Under the pieces are notes generated by a model, which saw nothing but the letters and a program-made list of their open reading frames with translations, searched no databases and had not been told where the DNA came from. DNA of 64,000 bases from Sulfuricurvum sp. (GTDB lineage: Bacteria; Campylobacterota; Campylobacteria; Campylobacterales; Sulfurimonadaceae). Numbering within the stretch: position 1 is the first letter of the stretch; each line of letters starts with the position of its first letter. Of this stretch, positions 16,265-26,343 are shown piece by piece. Where the stretch lies: NCBI RefSeq assembly GCF_030691015.1, contig NZ_JAUYFF010000008.1, positions 1 to 64,000 on the forward strand, read 5' to 3'. Both the position numbers and the translations under genes were made by a program.

Positions 16265-18394
16265 TTACCCGCCCTGCGTAATATCATAGAATCGCATGGA
16301 TGGTGTCCATAACTCTAGCGAGCCTTGTTTGAGGGTTTCAAGATCTATGGTAGATTCATACAATAGTGTAAAATAATCGCATACACTTCGCATCCCCTCA
16401 TCTATTCCAAATAGTTCAACATACTGTCGGACTCCGTATTCGATACTCTCTTGAGGCGCTTTAAATTGTATTTTTTGCTCCAGTTGTACACAATAGGCTT
16501 GTCCGATTACAGCGGCTATTGCTCTGTATTTATCACGTATCTCCCTATAGGGTTCAAAAACATCGAATATCTCTTGCGCACTCCCTGTTGATGCAAACCG
16601 TTGTGCTTTATCAACAATACTGTTCCATTGACGCTCTAATACCTGTGCTTCAGGTGTTTCATACAGAAGCGGATAGGTGCTGAGATAGGAAAAAGCGTTA
16701 GAGAGATCATTCGAAGCTATGGCCTGATAAAAAAGATGTTTTATCCGTATTGTTTCGATCATCTCCTGAGCCTCATGCGCATAATCGGGAAAGGATATTA
16801 AAATCTTACACGCTTTTCGTGCCGTTGCATAATCACTTTTTGCGTACGCTTTTTGGGATTGAATATAAAGTATATCGCCATATTCCATAGTTGAAGCGTA
16901 CTCGGAAAACTCTTTTAAAAACGGGTATTTATTAACCAGTCCGAAGAACTTCACATAATCATGCTGTGCGATCGTTTTTTTCAAATATTCATACATTTGA
17001 CGTTGTTCGAACAGTTGTTGAATCATCACCGTTTTATCCGATATTCCACGGTACGGTGCCAATAGTGCTTTGGCCTGTTCTTCTCCATTAGGCAATAAAA
17101 TCAACTCTTGCGCCTTAGCAAAAAGCTTTTTCCACGCTAACTCCATTTTAAAGTAAAGTTCCGATTCTTGAAAAGCGGGATATTGTTTGGCTAATGAATA
17201 GGCTAAAGGGAGTCTCCCCACTTTTATATACCCTTGAAACTGCTCGTATTTTTCATACGAACTGAGCATTTGATTGATAACCGTATTTTTTTTAGGTACA
17301 CCCGTAAAAGGGGCAAAAAGTTCTTTCGCCGATGCGCGTTCATTTTTTTCAAGAAGCTCTCGCCCTTGGGCGACGGTCTGTGACCATATTTTCTCTGCCG
17401 CCTCATAAGTTTTAGAGTAAACCAATATCGGATTAGCTTCAATCGCTGTATAAAACGCTTTAAATCGGCGGTCGAGAATCATCTCCATGCAGTTCATTTC
17501 ATCGCTCAAAAGTGAATAAACACGGACATTTCCCGCTACGGTTCCGATAACTAAACACATGGGATCATCGAACAGCGCAAGGGATGTTATCTCTTCACTT
17601 TCTTTGATATAACGTGGGGTAATTTGCTCCATAGTATGTAGATTGTATAACCCTACGTACCCTAGTTTGGTTCCGACGAAAAGAAACTGCTTACTCGGAC
17701 TGATACACATTGCCGTAACTTCATCCGTCATTTTTGGAAGACGTTTTAGTACTTTAGCATTGCTCATATCCCATACAATCAGACCGCCTGAACGCTCAAC
17801 CGAGAGAAGTTTCGCTTCCGGCAAAAATAAAATCTCTTTGATCATATCCGAATGTCCGCGCAGCTTTATCGGCTCTTTCATAGTAGCGGTGTTGAGTAGA
17901 TTAATCGATTTGTCGTAACTTCCGGTTGCAATCCACTGCCCCTCATCATCAAAGGAAACCGTGCTGATGAAATCAGCATGAGGGGGGAGTGAAAAAGCTA
18001 AACGGGAGGTTTTAAGAACCCACGCAAAGGACTTCCCATCTTGACCGCACGTGATGAAATAGCGGCCGTTTGGATCCATAGCGACACTCTCAACTTCCCC
18101 TTCGTGCCGACCTGCTTTATAAATCAATTTTCTCTTTGATAAACTAAAAATGGCGGCTTGATTCGTATCTGCAACAGCAGAAACTAAATATTTGCCATCC
18201 GGCGTCAAATCGACATAGCTGCTCAAATTTCGTTCATGTTTAATGTTTGTTTTAAACCCGTCCACCACCGCAAACGTATCTCTATCAATAATACGAAGGG
18301 TATTTTGTGAATCTACTACACCCAATTTTCGATCGGTAAGGGTCTTAACAAAAAGTATCGGCAGTTTAAAATTTAGTGATTTAATTATTTCCAT
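16265..18394 (-). CDS. WD40 propeller plus four-repeat helical solenoid protein (copy A)
   Basis: A 709-residue cytoplasmic protein with no signal peptide. Residues about 1-300 form WD40-like blades (for example GRYFITCGQDGKSFAWVL, GQWIATGSYDKSINLLN). Residues about 310-650 carry four copies of an 84-85-residue helical unit. The invariant Pro of the NP/YP motif falls at 322, 406, 491 and 575, and a second motif (for example LAPYRGISDK) recurs near 360, 445, 530 and 613. I know of no assigned function for this architecture. The length matches copy B exactly and I judge them about 60% identical. No ribosome-binding site precedes the ATG; a TGA-TAAAAT extended -10 ends 5 nt before it. The 34-bp gap to copy B allows an internal promoter. 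Confidence 0.85.
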   Translation of the reverse strand: MEIIKSLNFKLPILFVKTLTDRKLGVVDSQNTLRIIDRDTFAVVDGFKTNIKHERNLSSYVDLTPDGKYLVSAVADTNQAAIFSLSKRKLIYKAGRHEGEVESVAMDPNGRYFITCGQDGKSFAWVLKTSRLAFSLPPHADFISTVSFDDEGQWIATGSYDKSINLLNTATMKEPIKLRGHSDMIKEILFLPEAKLLSVERSGGLIVWDMSNAKVLKRLPKMTDEVTAMCISPSKQFLFVGTKLGYVGLYNLHTMEQITPRYIKESEEITSLALFDDPMCLVIGTVAGNVRVYSLLSDEMNCMEMILDRRFKAFYTAIEANPILVYSKTYEAAEKIWSQTVAQGRELLEKNERASAKELFAPFTGVPKKNTVINQMLSSYEKYEQFQGYIKVGRLPLAYSLAKQYPAFQESELYFKMELAWKKLFAKAQELILLPNGEEQAKALLAPYRGISDKTVMIQQLFEQRQMYEYLKKTIAQHDYVKFFGLVNKYPFLKEFSEYASTMEYGDILYIQSQKAYAKSDYATARKACKILISFPDYAHEAQEMIETIRIKHLFYQAIASNDLSNAFSYLSTYPLLYETPEAQVLERQWNSIVDKAQRFASTGSAQEIFDVFEPYREIRDKYRAIAAVIGQAYCVQLEQKIQFKAPQESIEYGVRQYVELFGIDEGMRSVCDYFTLLYESTIDLETLKQGSLELWTPSMRFYDITQGG

Positions 18395-18399
18395 ATACT

Positions 18400-18408
18400 A
18401 TTTTATCA
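18400..18408 (-). promoter_or_regulatory. Extended -10 box before WD40 copy A, possible leaderless start
   Basis: Read on the minus strand, TGA-TAAAAT ends 5 nt before the ATG at 18394 and no Shine-Dalgarno sequence is present. Copy B upstream does have one (GAGGAAAT). Copy A may therefore be transcribed separately from copy B. Confidence 0.35.
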
Positions 18409-18428
18409 GTACTACCGTGAGTTTCATC

Positions 18429-20558
18429 TTATACCCGTGCCGTGATATCATCAATACGACTCGTAGGGCTCCACGTCTCTAGGGAACCTTTTTTGAGCAC
18501 TTGAAGGTCAATCTTAGATTGGGTCACGCGCTTTAGCAAATCTACTATGCTCATAATAGCTTCATCAATCCCCAAAAGAGTCACATATTGGCGAATACCC
18601 CGTTCGATGATATCTAGGGGGGCATCACGACGTATTTTTTCTTCGAGCTGTACACAATACGCTTGTGACACAACGCCTGCCATTGCTCTGAATTTATCAC
18701 GGATTCCGAAATAAGGTTCAAAAACGGCTCTGGTTTCAGCCGCATTACCCGCCGCCGCATACTTCTGTGCTTTATCCACAGCACTGTTCCATTTGCGTTC
18801 CAATTCCTGTCCTTCACGTGTCTCATACAGTAGAGGATACAGACTAAGGTAGGAGAATGCATTTGAGAGGTTATTGGATGAAATCGCTTCATAAAAGAGG
18901 TGTTTAATCCGTATGGTATCGCCTACTTCATGAGCTTCTTGGGCATAATCGGGAAAAGAGACCAAAATTTCACACCCTTTTCTCGCCGTCGCAAAATCTC
19001 CGTCTGCGTATGCTTTTTGGGTTTGAATATAGAGTTTGTCAGCATACTCCATCACATCGGTGTATTCTTCAAACTCTTTCAAAAACGGATACATTTTTAT
19101 AAGTCCGAAAAATTTAACATAATCGTGTTGTGCAATCATTTTTTTGAAATATACATACATTTTACGCTGTTCAAAAAGTTGCTGAATAAGTACGGTCTTT
19201 TCCGATATCCCCCGATATTGTCCCAATAATTCACGAGCTTGCTCTTCTCCGTTAGGGGTTAAAATCAGCTCTTGGGCTTTGAAAAAATTCTTTTTCCATT
19301 TCGCTTCCATCTTTCGATAGATGTCTGAGTCTTGAAAGGAGGGATATTGTTTGGCTAAAGAGTATGCTAATGCGAGGTGCCCCTCTTGGGCAGATACTCT
19401 ATATTGTTCATATTTCTCATATGAGCTGAGCATCTGAGTGATAAATGACTGTTTTTTCGTAATAACAGCAAAAGGGGCAAACAATTCTTTTGCTTTTTGA
19501 CGCTCATTTTTTTCCAGATAAGAGCGCCCTTTTTCGACTATGTCCAGCCATATTTTTTCTGCCACTTCATAGAGTTTAGAATAATAGAGCATCGGATTCT
19601 CTTCAAGAGCATCATAAAATGTTTTATACTCTCCATCACGCAGCATCTCTTTGTATTTTTTCTCATCCCCTAAAAGGGAGTAAAAATGAAGATTCCCGTT
19701 CAGGGTACTGATAGCCAAACGGTTAGGATTATTCACTAATGCCAAAGAGGTTATCGTCTCATGCACTTTAATATAGTGCTGAGTCACCAATTCCATTGTC
19801 TGCATATCGTAGAGGCCGACATAACCGAGTTTTGTTCCGACAAAAACAAACCGATTTGTCGTGCTGATACACATAGAGGTAATATCATCGTTCATTTTTG
19901 AAAGCCGTTTGAGTACTTTTCCTTTCCCGATGTCCCATACGATCAAACCGCCGCCTCGATCGGCGGATAGAAGTTTAGCTTCCGGCAAAAAGAGCATCTT
20001 TACAATGACACCGGTATGCCCATGCAGCTTAATAGGCTCATTCATCGTTGAAATATTAAATAATATAATAGTTTTGTCGTAGCTTCCCGTAGCGATCCAT
20101 TGTCCGTTATTACTAAAGGCAACCGTACTGACATAATCTGCGTGAGGCGGCAAGGTAAATGCCAAGCGCGAGGTTTTAAGAACCCATGCGAATGCTTTAC
20201 CGTCTTGTCCGCATGTAACGAAATAGCGTCCGTTCGGATCAATACCGACACTCTCAACGTCGCCTTGATGATGACCGACTTTATAGAGGAGTTCTCTTTT
20301 TGATAAACTGAAAATTCCGGCGTTATGTGTCCCCAGAAGAGCTGAAACAGTGTATTCGCCATCCAGCGTCATATCGACATAGCCGCCAAGATAGCGTTCA
20401 TATTGCATATTGGTTTTAAACCCGTCTAGGATGTCGTAGGTCGATCCATCGAGTATTCGAAGGGTGTTTTGAGCGTCAATGATTCCCAAGTTTCCGTTGG
20501 AGAGTGTTTTTAGAAGAAGTATGGGTTGTTTAAAATTTAATAATTTTAAAACTTCCAT
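18429..20558 (-). CDS. WD40 propeller plus four-repeat helical solenoid protein (copy B)
   Basis: Tandem paralogue of the gene at 16265-18394, also 709 residues. The WD40 half (about 1-300) shows blades such as GRYFVTCGQDGKAFAWVL and GQWIATGSYDKTIILFN. The helical half has the same four 84-85-residue units, with AKQYPSFQDSDIY, KMYPFLKEFEEY and SLYPLLYETREG marking successive repeats and QYRGISEKT and EPYFGIRDK marking the second motif. Identical length suggests duplication under strong structural constraint. It is preceded by GAGGAAA and lies 11 nt downstream of ilvA. A scaffolding or sensing role is inference; no catalytic motif is visible. Confidence 0.85.
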   Translation of the reverse strand: MEVLKLLNFKQPILLLKTLSNGNLGIIDAQNTLRILDGSTYDILDGFKTNMQYERYLGGYVDMTLDGEYTVSALLGTHNAGIFSLSKRELLYKVGHHQGDVESVGIDPNGRYFVTCGQDGKAFAWVLKTSRLAFTLPPHADYVSTVAFSNNGQWIATGSYDKTIILFNISTMNEPIKLHGHTGVIVKMLFLPEAKLLSADRGGGLIVWDIGKGKVLKRLSKMNDDITSMCISTTNRFVFVGTKLGYVGLYDMQTMELVTQHYIKVHETITSLALVNNPNRLAISTLNGNLHFYSLLGDEKKYKEMLRDGEYKTFYDALEENPMLYYSKLYEVAEKIWLDIVEKGRSYLEKNERQKAKELFAPFAVITKKQSFITQMLSSYEKYEQYRVSAQEGHLALAYSLAKQYPSFQDSDIYRKMEAKWKKNFFKAQELILTPNGEEQARELLGQYRGISEKTVLIQQLFEQRKMYVYFKKMIAQHDYVKFFGLIKMYPFLKEFEEYTDVMEYADKLYIQTQKAYADGDFATARKGCEILVSFPDYAQEAHEVGDTIRIKHLFYEAISSNNLSNAFSYLSLYPLLYETREGQELERKWNSAVDKAQKYAAAGNAAETRAVFEPYFGIRDKFRAMAGVVSQAYCVQLEEKIRRDAPLDIIERGIRQYVTLLGIDEAIMSIVDLLKRVTQSKIDLQVLKKGSLETWSPTSRIDDITARV

Positions 20559-20569
20559 ACACTATTTCC

Positions 20570-21781
20570 TCAATGTTCTTCACTACTGAGATAGCGGTGT
20601 TCTTTCAGTAAGTCACGAATTTGAGACTGATGCGCTTGCCCTTTTGTTTCCAAATGGATCATGACGTTTGCATCCCCATACGCGAGCGTCGTAGAGGTAC
20701 GATCATAAGCGATATGGACGATATTGGCATTAAGATCCTGCAGCATACGGGTGAGCTGCATCAGGGCGCCCGGTTTGTCCACCAATGTGACGGTAAGTTT
20801 CATCTTACGACCCGATTTAATAAGCCCTTTTTCGATAATAATGGAGAGCAATGTCACATCCATATTCCCGCCGCTGAGGACAACTCCCACTTTTTTATCC
20901 CGCAAATGCTCTAACTTGTGATGTAACAGTGCCGCTACTCCGGCAGCTCCGGCCCCTTCTACCACCAGTTTTTGCCGCTCCAGCAAAAATAAAATAGCAT
21001 TGGCGATCTCTTCATCATCAACGCTGACAAACTCATCAACCGATTCAAGTATATGAGAGAGGGTAACCGGCGAAGCATCTCGCACCGCGATGCCATCGGC
21101 AATAGTACGTACCGCCAAACTGTCAATCACCCTTTTGGCCTCATACGATTCACGCATGGCAGGAGCACCTGCCGCACCGACACCGATCACACGGATATGA
21201 GGGGAGAGCGCTTTGATCGCCGATGCCATCCCCGAAATGAGTCCGCCACCGCCCACAGGGATCACGATAGCGTCGAGATCGTCCATACATTCAAGCATTT
21301 CAATCGCTATCGTCCCCTGCCCCGCCATCACCGCTTCATCGGCAAACGGATGGACAAACACCATTGCATGTTCTTCACCGTAACGGGCTGCATACGCATA
21401 CGCTTCATCGTAATTGCTGCCCGCCAAAATAACTTCGGCACCGTAATAGCTGACGCCGTTAATTTTGGTCAACGGTGTCGATTCGGGCATAACGATGAGC
21501 GCTCGCGCTCCAAACATTTGAGCCGCCATCGCAACCCCTTGCGCATGGTTACCCGCACTGGCCGCAATAACTCCACGATCACGCTCTTCTTGGCTCAGAG
21601 AGGCAATTTTATTGTATGCCCCACGAATTTTAAACGCCCCCGTGACTTGCAGATTCTCTTTTTTGAGATAGACCTGACATCCTGATTCCTCACTAAGTCT
21701 AGGAGCATGCGAAAAGGTTGTTTTTACAATAACATCTTTAATACGTTCACGTGCTTCGTATATCGTTTTTAAATCGATCAA
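20570..21781 (-). CDS. ilvA: Threonine ammonia-lyase
   Basis: PLP enzyme converting threonine to 2-oxobutyrate, the entry step to isoleucine. The 403-residue protein has the PLP-lysine motif GAFKIRGAYNKI and the glycine-rich phosphate loop VGGGGLISG, with a single C-terminal ACT domain (about 325-403). This is the roughly 400-residue type; the ACT domain suggests amino-acid feedback. It is 9 nt downstream of the CoA-binding protein gene and 11 nt upstream of the WD40 pair. Confidence 0.95.
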   Translation of the reverse strand: MIDLKTIYEARERIKDVIVKTTFSHAPRLSEESGCQVYLKKENLQVTGAFKIRGAYNKIASLSQEERDRGVIAASAGNHAQGVAMAAQMFGARALIVMPESTPLTKINGVSYYGAEVILAGSNYDEAYAYAARYGEEHAMVFVHPFADEAVMAGQGTIAIEMLECMDDLDAIVIPVGGGGLISGMASAIKALSPHIRVIGVGAAGAPAMRESYEAKRVIDSLAVRTIADGIAVRDASPVTLSHILESVDEFVSVDDEEIANAILFLLERQKLVVEGAGAAGVAALLHHKLEHLRDKKVGVVLSGGNMDVTLLSIIIEKGLIKSGRKMKLTVTLVDKPGALMQLTRMLQDLNANIVHIAYDRTSTTLAYGDANVMIHLETKGQAHQSQIRDLLKEHRYLSSEEH

Positions 21782-22266: not shown

Positions 22267-23535
22267 TTAGAGACCTTTTTTCACTTCTCCGATGTAGCGC
22301 TGCCGTGGGCGCGCAATTTTCATTTCGTGATCGTTATTCAATTCGATCCATTGGGTGACCCATCCGACAGAGCGACCGATGACAAAGATAATCGTAAACA
22401 TCGATTTCGGAATTTTAAGTGCCGTCAAAATAAGACCGGAATAAAAATCGATATTGGGATAGAGTTTACGCTGAATAAAATACTCATCCGCTAATGCGAT
22501 TTGTTCAATCTTCTCCGCTATCTTCAATAAATCGTTATTAACCCCGAGTTCATCTTTCAGCTGATCAAGGAGATTTTTGAGAATCTTGGCTCGGGGGTCA
22601 AAGTTTTTATAGACCCGATGACCGAATCCCATCAGTTTGAACTCATCGTTCGGGTCTTTCGCACGTGCGATAAACTCATCCACGTTATCCACACTTCCTA
22701 TGTATTCGAGTTGAGCGATCACTGACTCATTTGCTCCGCCATGCGCCCTTCCCCAGAGTGCATTGATTCCGGCGGATAACGATGCATACGGGTGCGCTCC
22801 CGTTGAAGCGACAGCCCGTACGGTAGAGGTTGAGGCATTTTGTTCATGATCGGCATGGAGGGTAAAGATCGTATCAAGAGCTTTTACCTCAACATCACGA
22901 ATTTCGAGATTCTCACCCGGATAGGCACGCATCATATAGAGAAAATTCTCCGTAAAGGGGCGTTCAATATCGGGATATATATAGGGTATGCCGAACATTC
23001 GGCGATGGGTAAACGCCGCCAGAGTAGGAATCTTGGCGATAATACGGCGTGCCATGATCTGCGCTTCATCCGCCGTTGTAACATTGAGATGTTCAAAATA
23101 AAAGGTTGAAAGAGCCGAAACCGCCGATGACATCATTGCCATCGGATGAGCTTTGTCGGGGAAGGCGTCAAAAAGGCGTTTTAATCCTTCATGGACAAAG
23201 GAGCGTTTTCGAAGCTCAATATCGAACTCCGCCCGCTCTTTTTCATTCGGCAGTTTCCCTACCAAAAGGAGATAGGCAACGTCCAGATAGCTCTTTTTTG
23301 TCGCCAAATCACTAATATTGTATCCACGGTAAAGTAGTTCCCCCTTTTCACCGTCAATATAGGTGATGGAAGAGCTGCAACTGGCCGTAGAGGTAAACCC
23401 GGGATCATACGTAAACATCCCCGTCTCTTTGTAGAGGGAGCGTACATCAATGACATCAGGACCCACTGTAGGGTGAAGGATAGAGAATTCATAGCTTTTT
23501 CCGGTGCGATTATCGGTAAGTGTAACAGTATCCAA
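22267..23535 (-). CDS. gltA: Citrate synthase
   Basis: Condenses oxaloacetate and acetyl-CoA to citrate. The 422-residue protein is a type II (hexameric) citrate synthase with the signature GFGHRVYKNFDPRA and the catalytic His/Asp environment (LHADHEQNASTSTVR, FYSGLIL). AGGAG lies about 9 nt before the ATG. A TATAGT-like -10 is visible near 23570 on the minus strand. Its presence alongside oor and sucCD is notable because the canonical reductive TCA cycle uses ATP citrate lyase; none is seen in this window. Divergent from the sensor kinase gene. Confidence 0.96.
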   Translation of the reverse strand: MDTVTLTDNRTGKSYEFSILHPTVGPDVIDVRSLYKETGMFTYDPGFTSTASCSSSITYIDGEKGELLYRGYNISDLATKKSYLDVAYLLLVGKLPNEKERAEFDIELRKRSFVHEGLKRLFDAFPDKAHPMAMMSSAVSALSTFYFEHLNVTTADEAQIMARRIIAKIPTLAAFTHRRMFGIPYIYPDIERPFTENFLYMMRAYPGENLEIRDVEVKALDTIFTLHADHEQNASTSTVRAVASTGAHPYASLSAGINALWGRAHGGANESVIAQLEYIGSVDNVDEFIARAKDPNDEFKLMGFGHRVYKNFDPRAKILKNLLDQLKDELGVNNDLLKIAEKIEQIALADEYFIQRKLYPNIDFYSGLILTALKIPKSMFTIIFVIGRSVGWVTQWIELNNDHEMKIARPRQRYIGEVKKGL

Positions 23536-23613
23536 GGGAAATCTCCTATAGCAGCAAAAACGTTCTATAACTATAGCTTAAAAATGAGGATTGAAAACAT
23601 TTTTTGTAACCCC

Positions 23614-23622
23614 TGCTATACT
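23614..23622 (+). promoter_or_regulatory. Extended -10 promoter element of the sensor kinase-mqo unit
   Basis: TGC-TATACT is a strong extended -10 box 51 nt upstream of the kinase ATG. A TTGAAA at 23591-23596 is a possible -35 but with a 20-nt spacer. The divergent gltA promoter lies in the same 138-bp gap. Confidence 0.5.
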
Positions 23623-23673
23623 AATGCGTTTAATGTTTTCATTAAATTGAAAGCTCACCCGATAGGAATCCTA

Positions 23674-26343
23674 ATGAAATATCCAAAACAGAACAGAACT
23701 GAGACCCGATTTATCATTATTATCTTTATCATACTGGCTATTTTGACAGCATTTTCTCAATTGTTTGGGCTGTATCAATTACGCATTATGAATGGCATTA
23801 CCAATGCAATGTATGATCGTCCCTTTCAAGTATCTATGTCGGCACTGGCAGTCAAATCCGAAGTCTTTAAAATGCACCGGGATATGAAAGATATTATTTT
23901 AGCTCAATCCGATGCAGAGCTGCAAAGATATATCAATCAAGTCGACAAACATGAACAACATGTCTACAGTAATCTCGCCAGTATCCGACTCCACACCCAA
24001 AGTGATGAAGGAAAAGAACTTGTCAACCAGATGGAAAGGTTGTTTCGAGAGTGGAAACCGATTCGCAGTGAAGTGATTCGATTGGCACAAAACGGTGAGC
24101 AAACAAAAGCTATTGCCATTACTAAGAATAAAGGTGCCGACCATGTGTTAAAACTTGAACAATCGAGTCAAAACCTTTATCTTCATGCCTACAAAAGAGC
24201 CATTGAGTTCAAAAACAATTCAGATGCTATGTATCAAAAGTTATCGATTACTGTCATCGTTCTAGGAAGTTTATTTTTAACTTTGTATGCTTTTTTAGCC
24301 TATTTTACCGTCCGGAGGATTTCAAACTATACGGCTAAAAATGACCATTTAACGGGTGTTCTCTCTGTTATCAGAGCCATCAACCAACTCATTGTACGTG
24401 TTAAAAGCAGAAAGACACTGATTCAGGAGAGCTGTAATATTTTAGTCTCTAACCACGTCTACGGCAATGCGTTGATTGTCCTCTACGATGAGAACAAAGG
24501 CATCGACACGATTGCCAGTGCGGATGCGTCGGGAAATTTCACCGGATTTAAAACGAAAATTGAGAGCGGATGGATACCCCCTTGTATTCAAAATGTAGCT
24601 GACCAAAAAGAAGGGTATTTATTGATCAGAAACACAAAGCAAAGCTGTCCGGAATGCCCACTAAGCGATAGATACCAGACTAAAGGGGCATTAAGTATTC
24701 AGCTAAAATATAACGACAAAGTATACGGAAACATCTCTCTCTCCGTTAATGAAGCCTACATTCATGATAAAGAGGAAATTTCACTCTTAGAGGAAGTTGC
24801 CGGTGATATCTCGTATGCCCTTCATAATTTTGAAACACAAGAACACCTTATGGAGCAAGAAAAATCGCTTAGTTACTTTAAAGAGCTCTATGAAAACATT
24901 ATTGACAGTGTCGATAATATTATTTTTGTTAAAGACATAAACTTTACCTATACCGTGTGTAATCAGGCATTCGAAAAGTTTGTCGGAAAAGCCAACCATG
25001 AAATCATCGGAAAAAGTGACTACGAGATATTTGACAAAGAGGTTGCCGATTTCTTTCGCATCCATGATGTAAAAATGTTTGAAGAGAATACAAGCAAATC
25101 CAATTTCGAATGGGTGACCTATCCTGATGGTAAGCAAGTTTATCTGTTTACCGTTAAATCACCTCTCGTCAATTCCGCAGGTGCCCTTTTAGGATTAGTC
25201 GGAAATTCTGCTGATGTTACGGAACAAAGAATTGCAGAAGAGGCATTAACGCAAAAGAAAAAAGAGCTGGAGACAATCTTGCAAGAGGCACCTAATCCTA
25301 TCATGCTTCATAATGAAGCTGGCGAAGTGATTATGGTTAACCGTGTATGGCAATCTCTCAGCGGTTATACCTTCGAGGAGATCGATACCGTAGAGAAATG
25401 GGCTAACAAAGCATGTGATACAGACAAACCTCTTATGCGCGAGTATATGGACAAGCTGTACTCTTTGGAACACAAAATTGATATGGGAGAAGCATCGGTG
25501 ACAACCAAAGAGGGGAATACCCTTATTTGGCAGTTTAGTTCAGCCCCGCTGGGAATTATTGATGGGAAACGAACGGTCGTCACCACGGCTATGGATATTA
25601 CCGAATTAAAGAGAAAAGACCAGCTGATGATGGCACAATCACGCCACGCGGCTATGGGTGAGATGATAGGCATGATAGCGCACCAATGGCGACAGCCTAT
25701 CTCCGGTATCGCGATGAACGCCAATAACATATTACTGGATATTGCGCTAGAGTCATTTGATAACACATCCGCTACCGCATATGCGGAAGATATATTGGAT
25801 CAAACGCAGCACCTTTCCAAAACTATCGATGATTTCAGAAATTTTTTCAAACCCGATAAATCGGTCTCAACCGTCAATCTCAGAGAGATCCTAGAGGAGA
25901 CTTTCACCATTGTCAAAGATAGCCTCACAAACAATGGAATCCAGATCAAAACCTCCTATCTAACCGATACAAAGGTGGACGCATACTCGCGGGAACTGAT
26001 GCAGGTATTTGTCAATATTATCAACAATGCCAAAGATGTATTACTCTCTAAACAGACGAAAGATCCCCTTATTGATATCTGTGTCGATGAGGATGAGATG
26101 TATATCAATACCTCCATTTGTGACAACGGAGGGGGAATCAGTGAATCCATTCTTCCGAAACTGTTCGATCCGTATTTCACGACAAAAGATGAGAAGACAG
26201 GTACGGGATTGGGATTGTATATGAGCAAAATGATTATCGAAGACCATCTCCACGGCGTCATTGAAGCGTACAACAGTAATGACGGTGCATGTTTTAAAAT
26301 TAGGTTGTTAAAAAAATCCCCTGAGAATGAAAGAGTTTCATGA
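23674..26343 (+). CDS. Multi-PAS membrane sensor histidine kinase
   Basis: An 889-residue sensor kinase. The start at 23674 is chosen because AGGAAT lies 5-10 nt upstream and a membrane helix follows (residues about 13-34); the open frame extends further upstream, but only over the promoter and opposite gltA. Order of parts: periplasmic helical sensor domain (about 35-185), second helix (about 190-213), GAF-like domain, two PAS domains, then HisKA with RHAAMGEMIGMIAHQWRQP. This H-box is the form common in Campylobacterota. The HATPase domain has NIINNAKDVLL and GTGLGLYMSK. No response regulator is adjacent. It overlaps mqo by 4 nt, so kinase and enzyme are translated together. Confidence 0.93.
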   Translation: MKYPKQNRTETRFIIIIFIILAILTAFSQLFGLYQLRIMNGITNAMYDRPFQVSMSALAVKSEVFKMHRDMKDIILAQSDAELQRYINQVDKHEQHVYSNLASIRLHTQSDEGKELVNQMERLFREWKPIRSEVIRLAQNGEQTKAIAITKNKGADHVLKLEQSSQNLYLHAYKRAIEFKNNSDAMYQKLSITVIVLGSLFLTLYAFLAYFTVRRISNYTAKNDHLTGVLSVIRAINQLIVRVKSRKTLIQESCNILVSNHVYGNALIVLYDENKGIDTIASADASGNFTGFKTKIESGWIPPCIQNVADQKEGYLLIRNTKQSCPECPLSDRYQTKGALSIQLKYNDKVYGNISLSVNEAYIHDKEEISLLEEVAGDISYALHNFETQEHLMEQEKSLSYFKELYENIIDSVDNIIFVKDINFTYTVCNQAFEKFVGKANHEIIGKSDYEIFDKEVADFFRIHDVKMFEENTSKSNFEWVTYPDGKQVYLFTVKSPLVNSAGALLGLVGNSADVTEQRIAEEALTQKKKELETILQEAPNPIMLHNEAGEVIMVNRVWQSLSGYTFEEIDTVEKWANKACDTDKPLMREYMDKLYSLEHKIDMGEASVTTKEGNTLIWQFSSAPLGIIDGKRTVVTTAMDITELKRKDQLMMAQSRHAAMGEMIGMIAHQWRQPISGIAMNANNILLDIALESFDNTSATAYAEDILDQTQHLSKTIDDFRNFFKPDKSVSTVNLREILEETFTIVKDSLTNNGIQIKTSYLTDTKVDAYSRELMQVFVNIINNAKDVLLSKQTKDPLIDICVDEDEMYINTSICDNGGGISESILPKLFDPYFTTKDEKTGTGLGLYMSKMIIEDHLHGVIEAYNSNDGACFKIRLLKKSPENERVS

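Follow-up and report, generated by a model that had tools for sequence, protein, structure and literature searches.

The membrane-coat architecture has been defined as an N-terminal propeller followed by stacked helix pairs, and has been stated to be restricted to eukaryotic coats and the Planctomycetes-Verrucomicrobia-Chlamydiae (PVC) group (PMC2799638). The other described systems with which the present locus bears comparison are prokaryotic WD40 proteins such as PkwA, the TPR proteins, the chemotaxis proteins CheW and CheZ, and the redox sensors Aer, NifL and MmoS. Here we analyse a tandem pair of genes, encoding proteins A and B, on a 64,000-nucleotide stretch of DNA from Sulfuricurvum sp. 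(contig NZ_JAUYFF010000008.1, positions 1 to 64,000; hereafter the window). Each protein joins a WD40 propeller to a helical solenoid, and the two belong to a real, regular and unnamed propeller-solenoid family. On balance, we favour the view that this family provides a cytoplasmic scaffold or adaptor for chemosensory and two-component signalling in Campylobacterota.

The genes are two reverse-strand open reading frames (ORFs) of 709 codons each, 34 bp apart, in agreement with the first-pass annotation of the window, which had described both products as 709 residues long. The proteins are 65% identical in an alignment without gaps, with the same degree of conservation in the propeller and helical halves. 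No signal peptide is evident by eye in either, although no dedicated predictor was run, and the first propeller strand begins at residue 3. Pfam WD40 (PF00400) matches the first 300 residues of the two proteins with scores of 69.3 and 79.2 bits (cut-off 27). An AlphaFold2 model of A, built from a 96-row family alignment (pLDDT 93.6, pTM 0.86), contains 28 strands forming seven blades between residues 3 and 294, onto which many solved WD40 propellers superpose at a Z score of about 34. Repeats above the curated cut-off and a closed propeller together place these proteins among the WD40 proteins.

The helical half had been predicted to be a regular four-copy solenoid, and the model of A bears this out with four equivalent units (residues 311-392, 395-476, 480-560 and 564-643). 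Each unit runs through a short helix, a proline, a five-residue helix, a long helix, a short helix and a long helix, making two hairpins, with the proline lying in the NP/YP motif. This periodicity is also apparent in the sequences. Offset scores of single sequences reach z 5.7 at 84 residues and 4.7-5.9 at 169, values attained by none of 2000 shuffles, while the 96-row family profile gives z 8.9, 6.7, 10.6 and 8.4 at offsets of 84, 85, 169 and 253, attained by none of 1000 column shuffles; a weaker offset of 42 residues follows from the two hairpins per unit. All six pairings of the units align in HHalign at probabilities of 97.6-99.6%. The invariant prolines noted earlier (P322, P406, P491 and P575, spaced 84, 85 and 84 residues apart) are present in both A and B. 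A second motif (A/EPF/Y ... K), said to recur in all four units, is clear in units 1, 2 and 4 and degenerate in unit 3, which reads SFPDYAHEA and lacks the lysine.

The earlier statement that the helical half fits no named family also holds, in that no Pfam family covers it, its NCBIfam matches are at chance level and it has no overall match to any solved structure. Full-length searches with Foldseek and VIA are dominated by propeller matches and the solenoid was therefore folded (pLDDT 95.2) and searched alone; Foldseek then returned no significant match, the first-ranked hit being an IFT-A chain (E 0.065, TM 0.14), a result that does not by itself prove a new fold. A local resemblance is to TPR proteins. 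In VIA, TPR pairs align structurally with one hairpin of A (about residues 501-557), LapB giving Z 9.0 over 57 residues, but this overlap covers only 57 of the 413 solenoid residues, and profile searches retrieve TPR-like chains at E 1e-4 or weaker. No Pfam TPR family matches the helical half of A and, among 96 members, two match TPR_6 and one TPR_19, with E-values above 0.002. The period of 84/85 residues and half-period of 42 likewise depart from the 34-residue helix pair, so that neither Pfam match nor unit length places the solenoid among the TPRs. Two further candidates were rejected. An anti-phage defence role was considered with PADLOC, where similarity (E 9e-8) was limited to the WD40 portion of a HEAT-ARM model of 1972 positions and no model matched over its full length; a mobile or phage origin was set aside when the solenoid found no match in plasmid or phage records. 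A literature search on WD40 proteins in Sulfurimonas, Wolinella and Helicobacter/Epsilonproteobacteria found no description of the family, in a coverage that largely leaves out subscription journals.

The layout had been likened to that of coat proteins, and the domain order of the A model does agree with the published definition, an N-terminal propeller preceding stacked helix pairs. It could accordingly be proposed that the protein bends or coats membranes, as has been suggested for Planctomycetes and eukaryotic coats. We consider this highly improbable, since the solenoid has no significant structural match to coat or pore proteins and the gene neighbours of the family are REC, PAS and che genes, pointing to signalling and not to membrane traffic. 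The occurrence of a propeller-solenoid family outside the Planctomycetes group, in a signalling context, argues that this architecture alone should not be read as the sign of a membrane coat.

A first line of evidence for a signalling role comes from partner genes. Same-strand genes encoding REC, REC-PAS or PAS proteins directly adjoin members from several families, many overlapping by 4-25 bp, and in the half of the family tree that excludes A and B, 26 of 55 members (counted from tree labels) lie directly beside one. Common to the partners is a PAS-like domain at the C-terminus, about 130 residues long, with the motif IPxPS..D...N..F..L...DWKE. It occurs in 268-residue REC proteins of Sulfuricurvum and, in several genome families, in the REC-PAS and PAS proteins encoded upstream. 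A search for this domain across 397 genomes of the order gave 36 matches; 30 loci were fetched, and 28 of these adjoin a family member. Together with a che cluster in the Sulfuricurvum genome itself, described below, this amounts to conserved linkage of the family to REC, PAS and Che genes. Of the remaining two loci, one (L258) ends at a contig edge and the other (L255) is unlinked. The latter, at G379:C1 around 271776, is the sole clear unlinked case and encodes a REC protein, in a genome that has the family elsewhere. Weak extra matches of the domain (E 1e-4 to 1e-6) were rejected as true copies; they look like chance, most falling in ORFs of unrelated proteins. The full-length profile of a second partner type gave eight strongest matches, six adjoining a family member and two unlinked, while the N-terminal part of a REC partner matched every response regulator and was uninformative. 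The partners have no DNA-binding or enzymatic output domain, and the PAS domain preceding the PAS-like domain is of the FAD redox type, matching MmoS (E 2e-38), Aer (5e-28) and NifL (2e-19).

Chemotaxis genes form a second line of linkage. A paralogue on contig C10 of the same genome stands in a co-directional run with CheY, CheA, CheW, CheR, CheD, CheB and two methyl-accepting chemotaxis proteins (MCPs), which also holds a 162-residue PAS protein, histidine kinases and a REC partner with the PAS-like domain. Another locus (L026) reads PAS, MCP, family member, PAS protein. Members of the half containing A and B adjoin CheZ-like genes at L068 and L083, the former matching NCBIfam Phos_CheZ over its full length (E 2e-52, under the curated cut-off), and one lies near fliD/fliS with a single gene between (L062). 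In two genera (L061, L067) a REC gene precedes the direct orthologue of A and B, which at L017, L018 and L034 is followed by ppx and then an MCP gene; its own linkage to signalling genes is confined to these loci. Proteins of 178-189 residues with N-termini similar by eye (L263 3259-3828, L264 848-1402, L028 1185-1721 and L029 3317-3874), without a Pfam match where tested, also recur near propeller-solenoid and REC partner genes in chemosensory clusters.

The family also co-occurs with CheW. Across the order, CheW is present in 119 of 122 family-positive genomes and in 201 of 275 family-negative ones (Fisher p 2e-10). Within family f1, the family/CheW table reads 46/2/1/7 (p 1e-6, or 2e-4 with genus g15 collapsed). 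Neither is found in G013, G151, G235, genera g15 and g13, or the f5 genomes listed except G379.

Several observations weigh against a signalling role or limit its reach. Because neighbours of the family served as seeds for the partner-domain profile, only non-seed loci are independent, though most of the adjacent loci are non-seed. In this genome, and in the majority of the genus, no REC or PAS gene neighbours A and B, which share their operon with ilvA and ppx, and Helicobacteraceae-like members (f13) are mostly without a linked partner. In three genomes (G108, G110 and G291) the family is present and CheW is missing, while 201 genomes, including G053 and G265, encode CheW but give no strong match to the family. 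Furthermore, the Fisher tests ignore shared ancestry, losses having been tallied on group codes and not on a species tree.

The operon of A and B raises a different explanation. The gene order is ilvA-B-A-ppx, with intergenic gaps of 11, 34 and 0 bp, and from these short distances A and B are predicted to be co-transcribed with ilvA and the Ppx/GppA-like gene. The ilvA-linked clade might thus serve metabolism or the stringent response, for example as a scaffold for the downstream Ppx/GppA-like phosphatase, only the other clade having been recruited to chemosensory signalling. Of the alternatives, this is the main one, and the order of family member then Ppx does recur, both in several genera and among f3 and f5 genomes (L054, L061, L067, L086 and L091). 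Even so, we regard it as unlikely: Sulfurimonas-like genomes (g14) retain the orthologue beside ilvA without ppx and, within f1, the protein is missing almost only where CheW is missing, which would be unexpected for a purely metabolic role. A scaffold role for REC/PAS signalling proteins, as predicted from linkage, is well supported in the partner-linked clade. By homology, co-loss with CheW and the linkages seen in other genera, A and B of the window probably have the same role, for REC/PAS clients encoded elsewhere.

The Sulfuricurvum genome has five members, namely A, B and copies on C17, C10 and C15, and the closest named record is S. kujiense, at 92% identity. The genus has a match in 36 of its 41 genomes and the taxonomic family in 125 of 139 good ones; at E 1e-20, 122 of the 397 order genomes match, and profile search brings in further distant ones. 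A peptide-pattern scan, using a single pattern that leaves other phyla possible, gave 68 loci, and all those with a stated lineage are Campylobacterota. The A/B orthologue is retained throughout the genus and by most of the taxonomic family. Side observations concern individual members. Two members of about 610 and 700 residues flank a polA-like gene of 865-873 residues in Nautiliales-like genomes (f15; L085, L092); second copies are split or stop-broken at L059 7438-9276, G141:C1 and G146:C34, apparently as decaying paralogues; and a 1623-residue ORF in G023 (L036 3923-8794), with WD40 similarity to the propeller half, is apparently another, larger WD40 protein.

The ilvA-linked orthologue occurs once in most genomes of the genus and is doubled in G000 and G002, while G015 has two contig-end pieces. 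In a FastTree tree of 131 members, which splits into two halves, A and B fall in the same half but, within the genus, in two separate sub-branches: one joins A to the lone copy of G001, the other joins B to the lone copies of G007 and G014. As judged from this tree, A and B are in-paralogues whose duplication therefore took place inside Sulfuricurvum. This bears on an earlier suggestion that two paralogues of equal length form a hetero-oligomer. Adjacent genes with intact frames, equal length and 65% identity would suit an obligate pair acting as the functional unit, and tandem copies also occur at L025, L060 and L069. The survey of relatives nevertheless showed that twins are not the rule; most have one copy, G001 has the A type without B, and G007 and G014 the B type without A, which weakens the suggestion and makes an obligate hetero-oligomer improbable.

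Table 1. Features of the A/B locus, in coordinates of the window.
Feature	Position	Strand	Basis or remark
Ppx/GppA-family protein, 289 aa	15395..16264	-	begins right after the stop of A
Protein A, 709 aa, WD40 propeller and four-unit solenoid	16265..18394	-	ORF, Pfam, structure model
A, C-terminal cap, two helices (648-662, 666-678) and tail	16268..16459	-	model
A, helical unit 4, residues 562-645	16460..16711	-	model, HHalign
A, helical unit 3, residues 478-561	16712..16963	-	second motif degenerate
A, helical unit 2, residues 393-477	16964..17218	-	best conserved unit; K454 in 94% of 96 members
A, helical unit 1, residues 309-392	17219..17470	-	model, HHalign
A, seven-bladed WD40 propeller, residues 1-296	17507..18394	-	model; Z 34 against solved WD40 propellers
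Protein B, 709 aa, WD40 propeller and four-unit solenoid	18429..20558	-	ORF, Pfam, alignment with A
B, four 84-residue helical units, residues 309-645	18624..19634	-	repeat analysis
B, seven-bladed WD40 propeller, residues 1-296	19671..20558	-	Pfam, alignment; by homology to the model of A
Threonine ammonia-lyase IlvA, upstream gene; adjoins the single-copy orthologue elsewhere too (conserved)	20570..21781	-	

Divergent from the gltA-ilvA-B-A operon, a sensor kinase with 4HB_MCP, PAS, HisKA and HATPase domains is encoded at 23473-26343 on the forward strand; its ORF start as listed overlaps gltA antisense, and the real start is probably further downstream.

The propeller and the eight-hairpin solenoid would each provide a large surface for binding. 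For members of the partner-linked clade, the neighbouring gene may supply the working partner, a REC and/or redox-type PAS protein whose terminal PAS-like domain would dock on the propeller-solenoid protein; phosphorylation or redox state could then be handed on to other clients, such as the chemosensory array, a phosphatase or motor control. Rather tentatively, we suggest that propeller-solenoid proteins and their REC-PAS partners, with a dedicated PAS-like terminal domain, may constitute an undescribed, phylum-specific module, in which response regulators have a WD40-solenoid scaffold as their output and feed redox information into chemotaxis. If the scaffold role is correct, chemosensory and two-component signalling in Campylobacterota includes an additional scaffold layer of a eukaryote-like kind, whose partner domain is nearly always encoded alongside, and the output of response regulators lacking an output domain is opened to testing. 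The structure model, the partner genes and the lineages with natural deletions allow direct tests.

The propeller of PkwA (5yzv) is seven-bladed like that of A, with 21% identity and Z 33 over 285 residues, but A and B have no kinase domain and their propeller is fused instead to a regular 84-residue helical repeat. That repeat differs from TPR in its unit, which comprises two unequal hairpins and a five-residue helix started by proline. With eukaryotic and PVC coats, A and B share the order of N-terminal propeller and alpha-solenoid, whereas their solenoid is short and highly regular, without a significant fold match to coats, and the genes are linked to signalling. The family resembles CheZ and CheW in gene neighbourhood and co-occurrence, while being unrelated to them in sequence and fold. 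Finally, the partner proteins share their FAD-type PAS domain with the redox sensors Aer, NifL and MmoS but lack kinase or MCP output and carry, in addition, REC and a dedicated PAS-like domain at their end.

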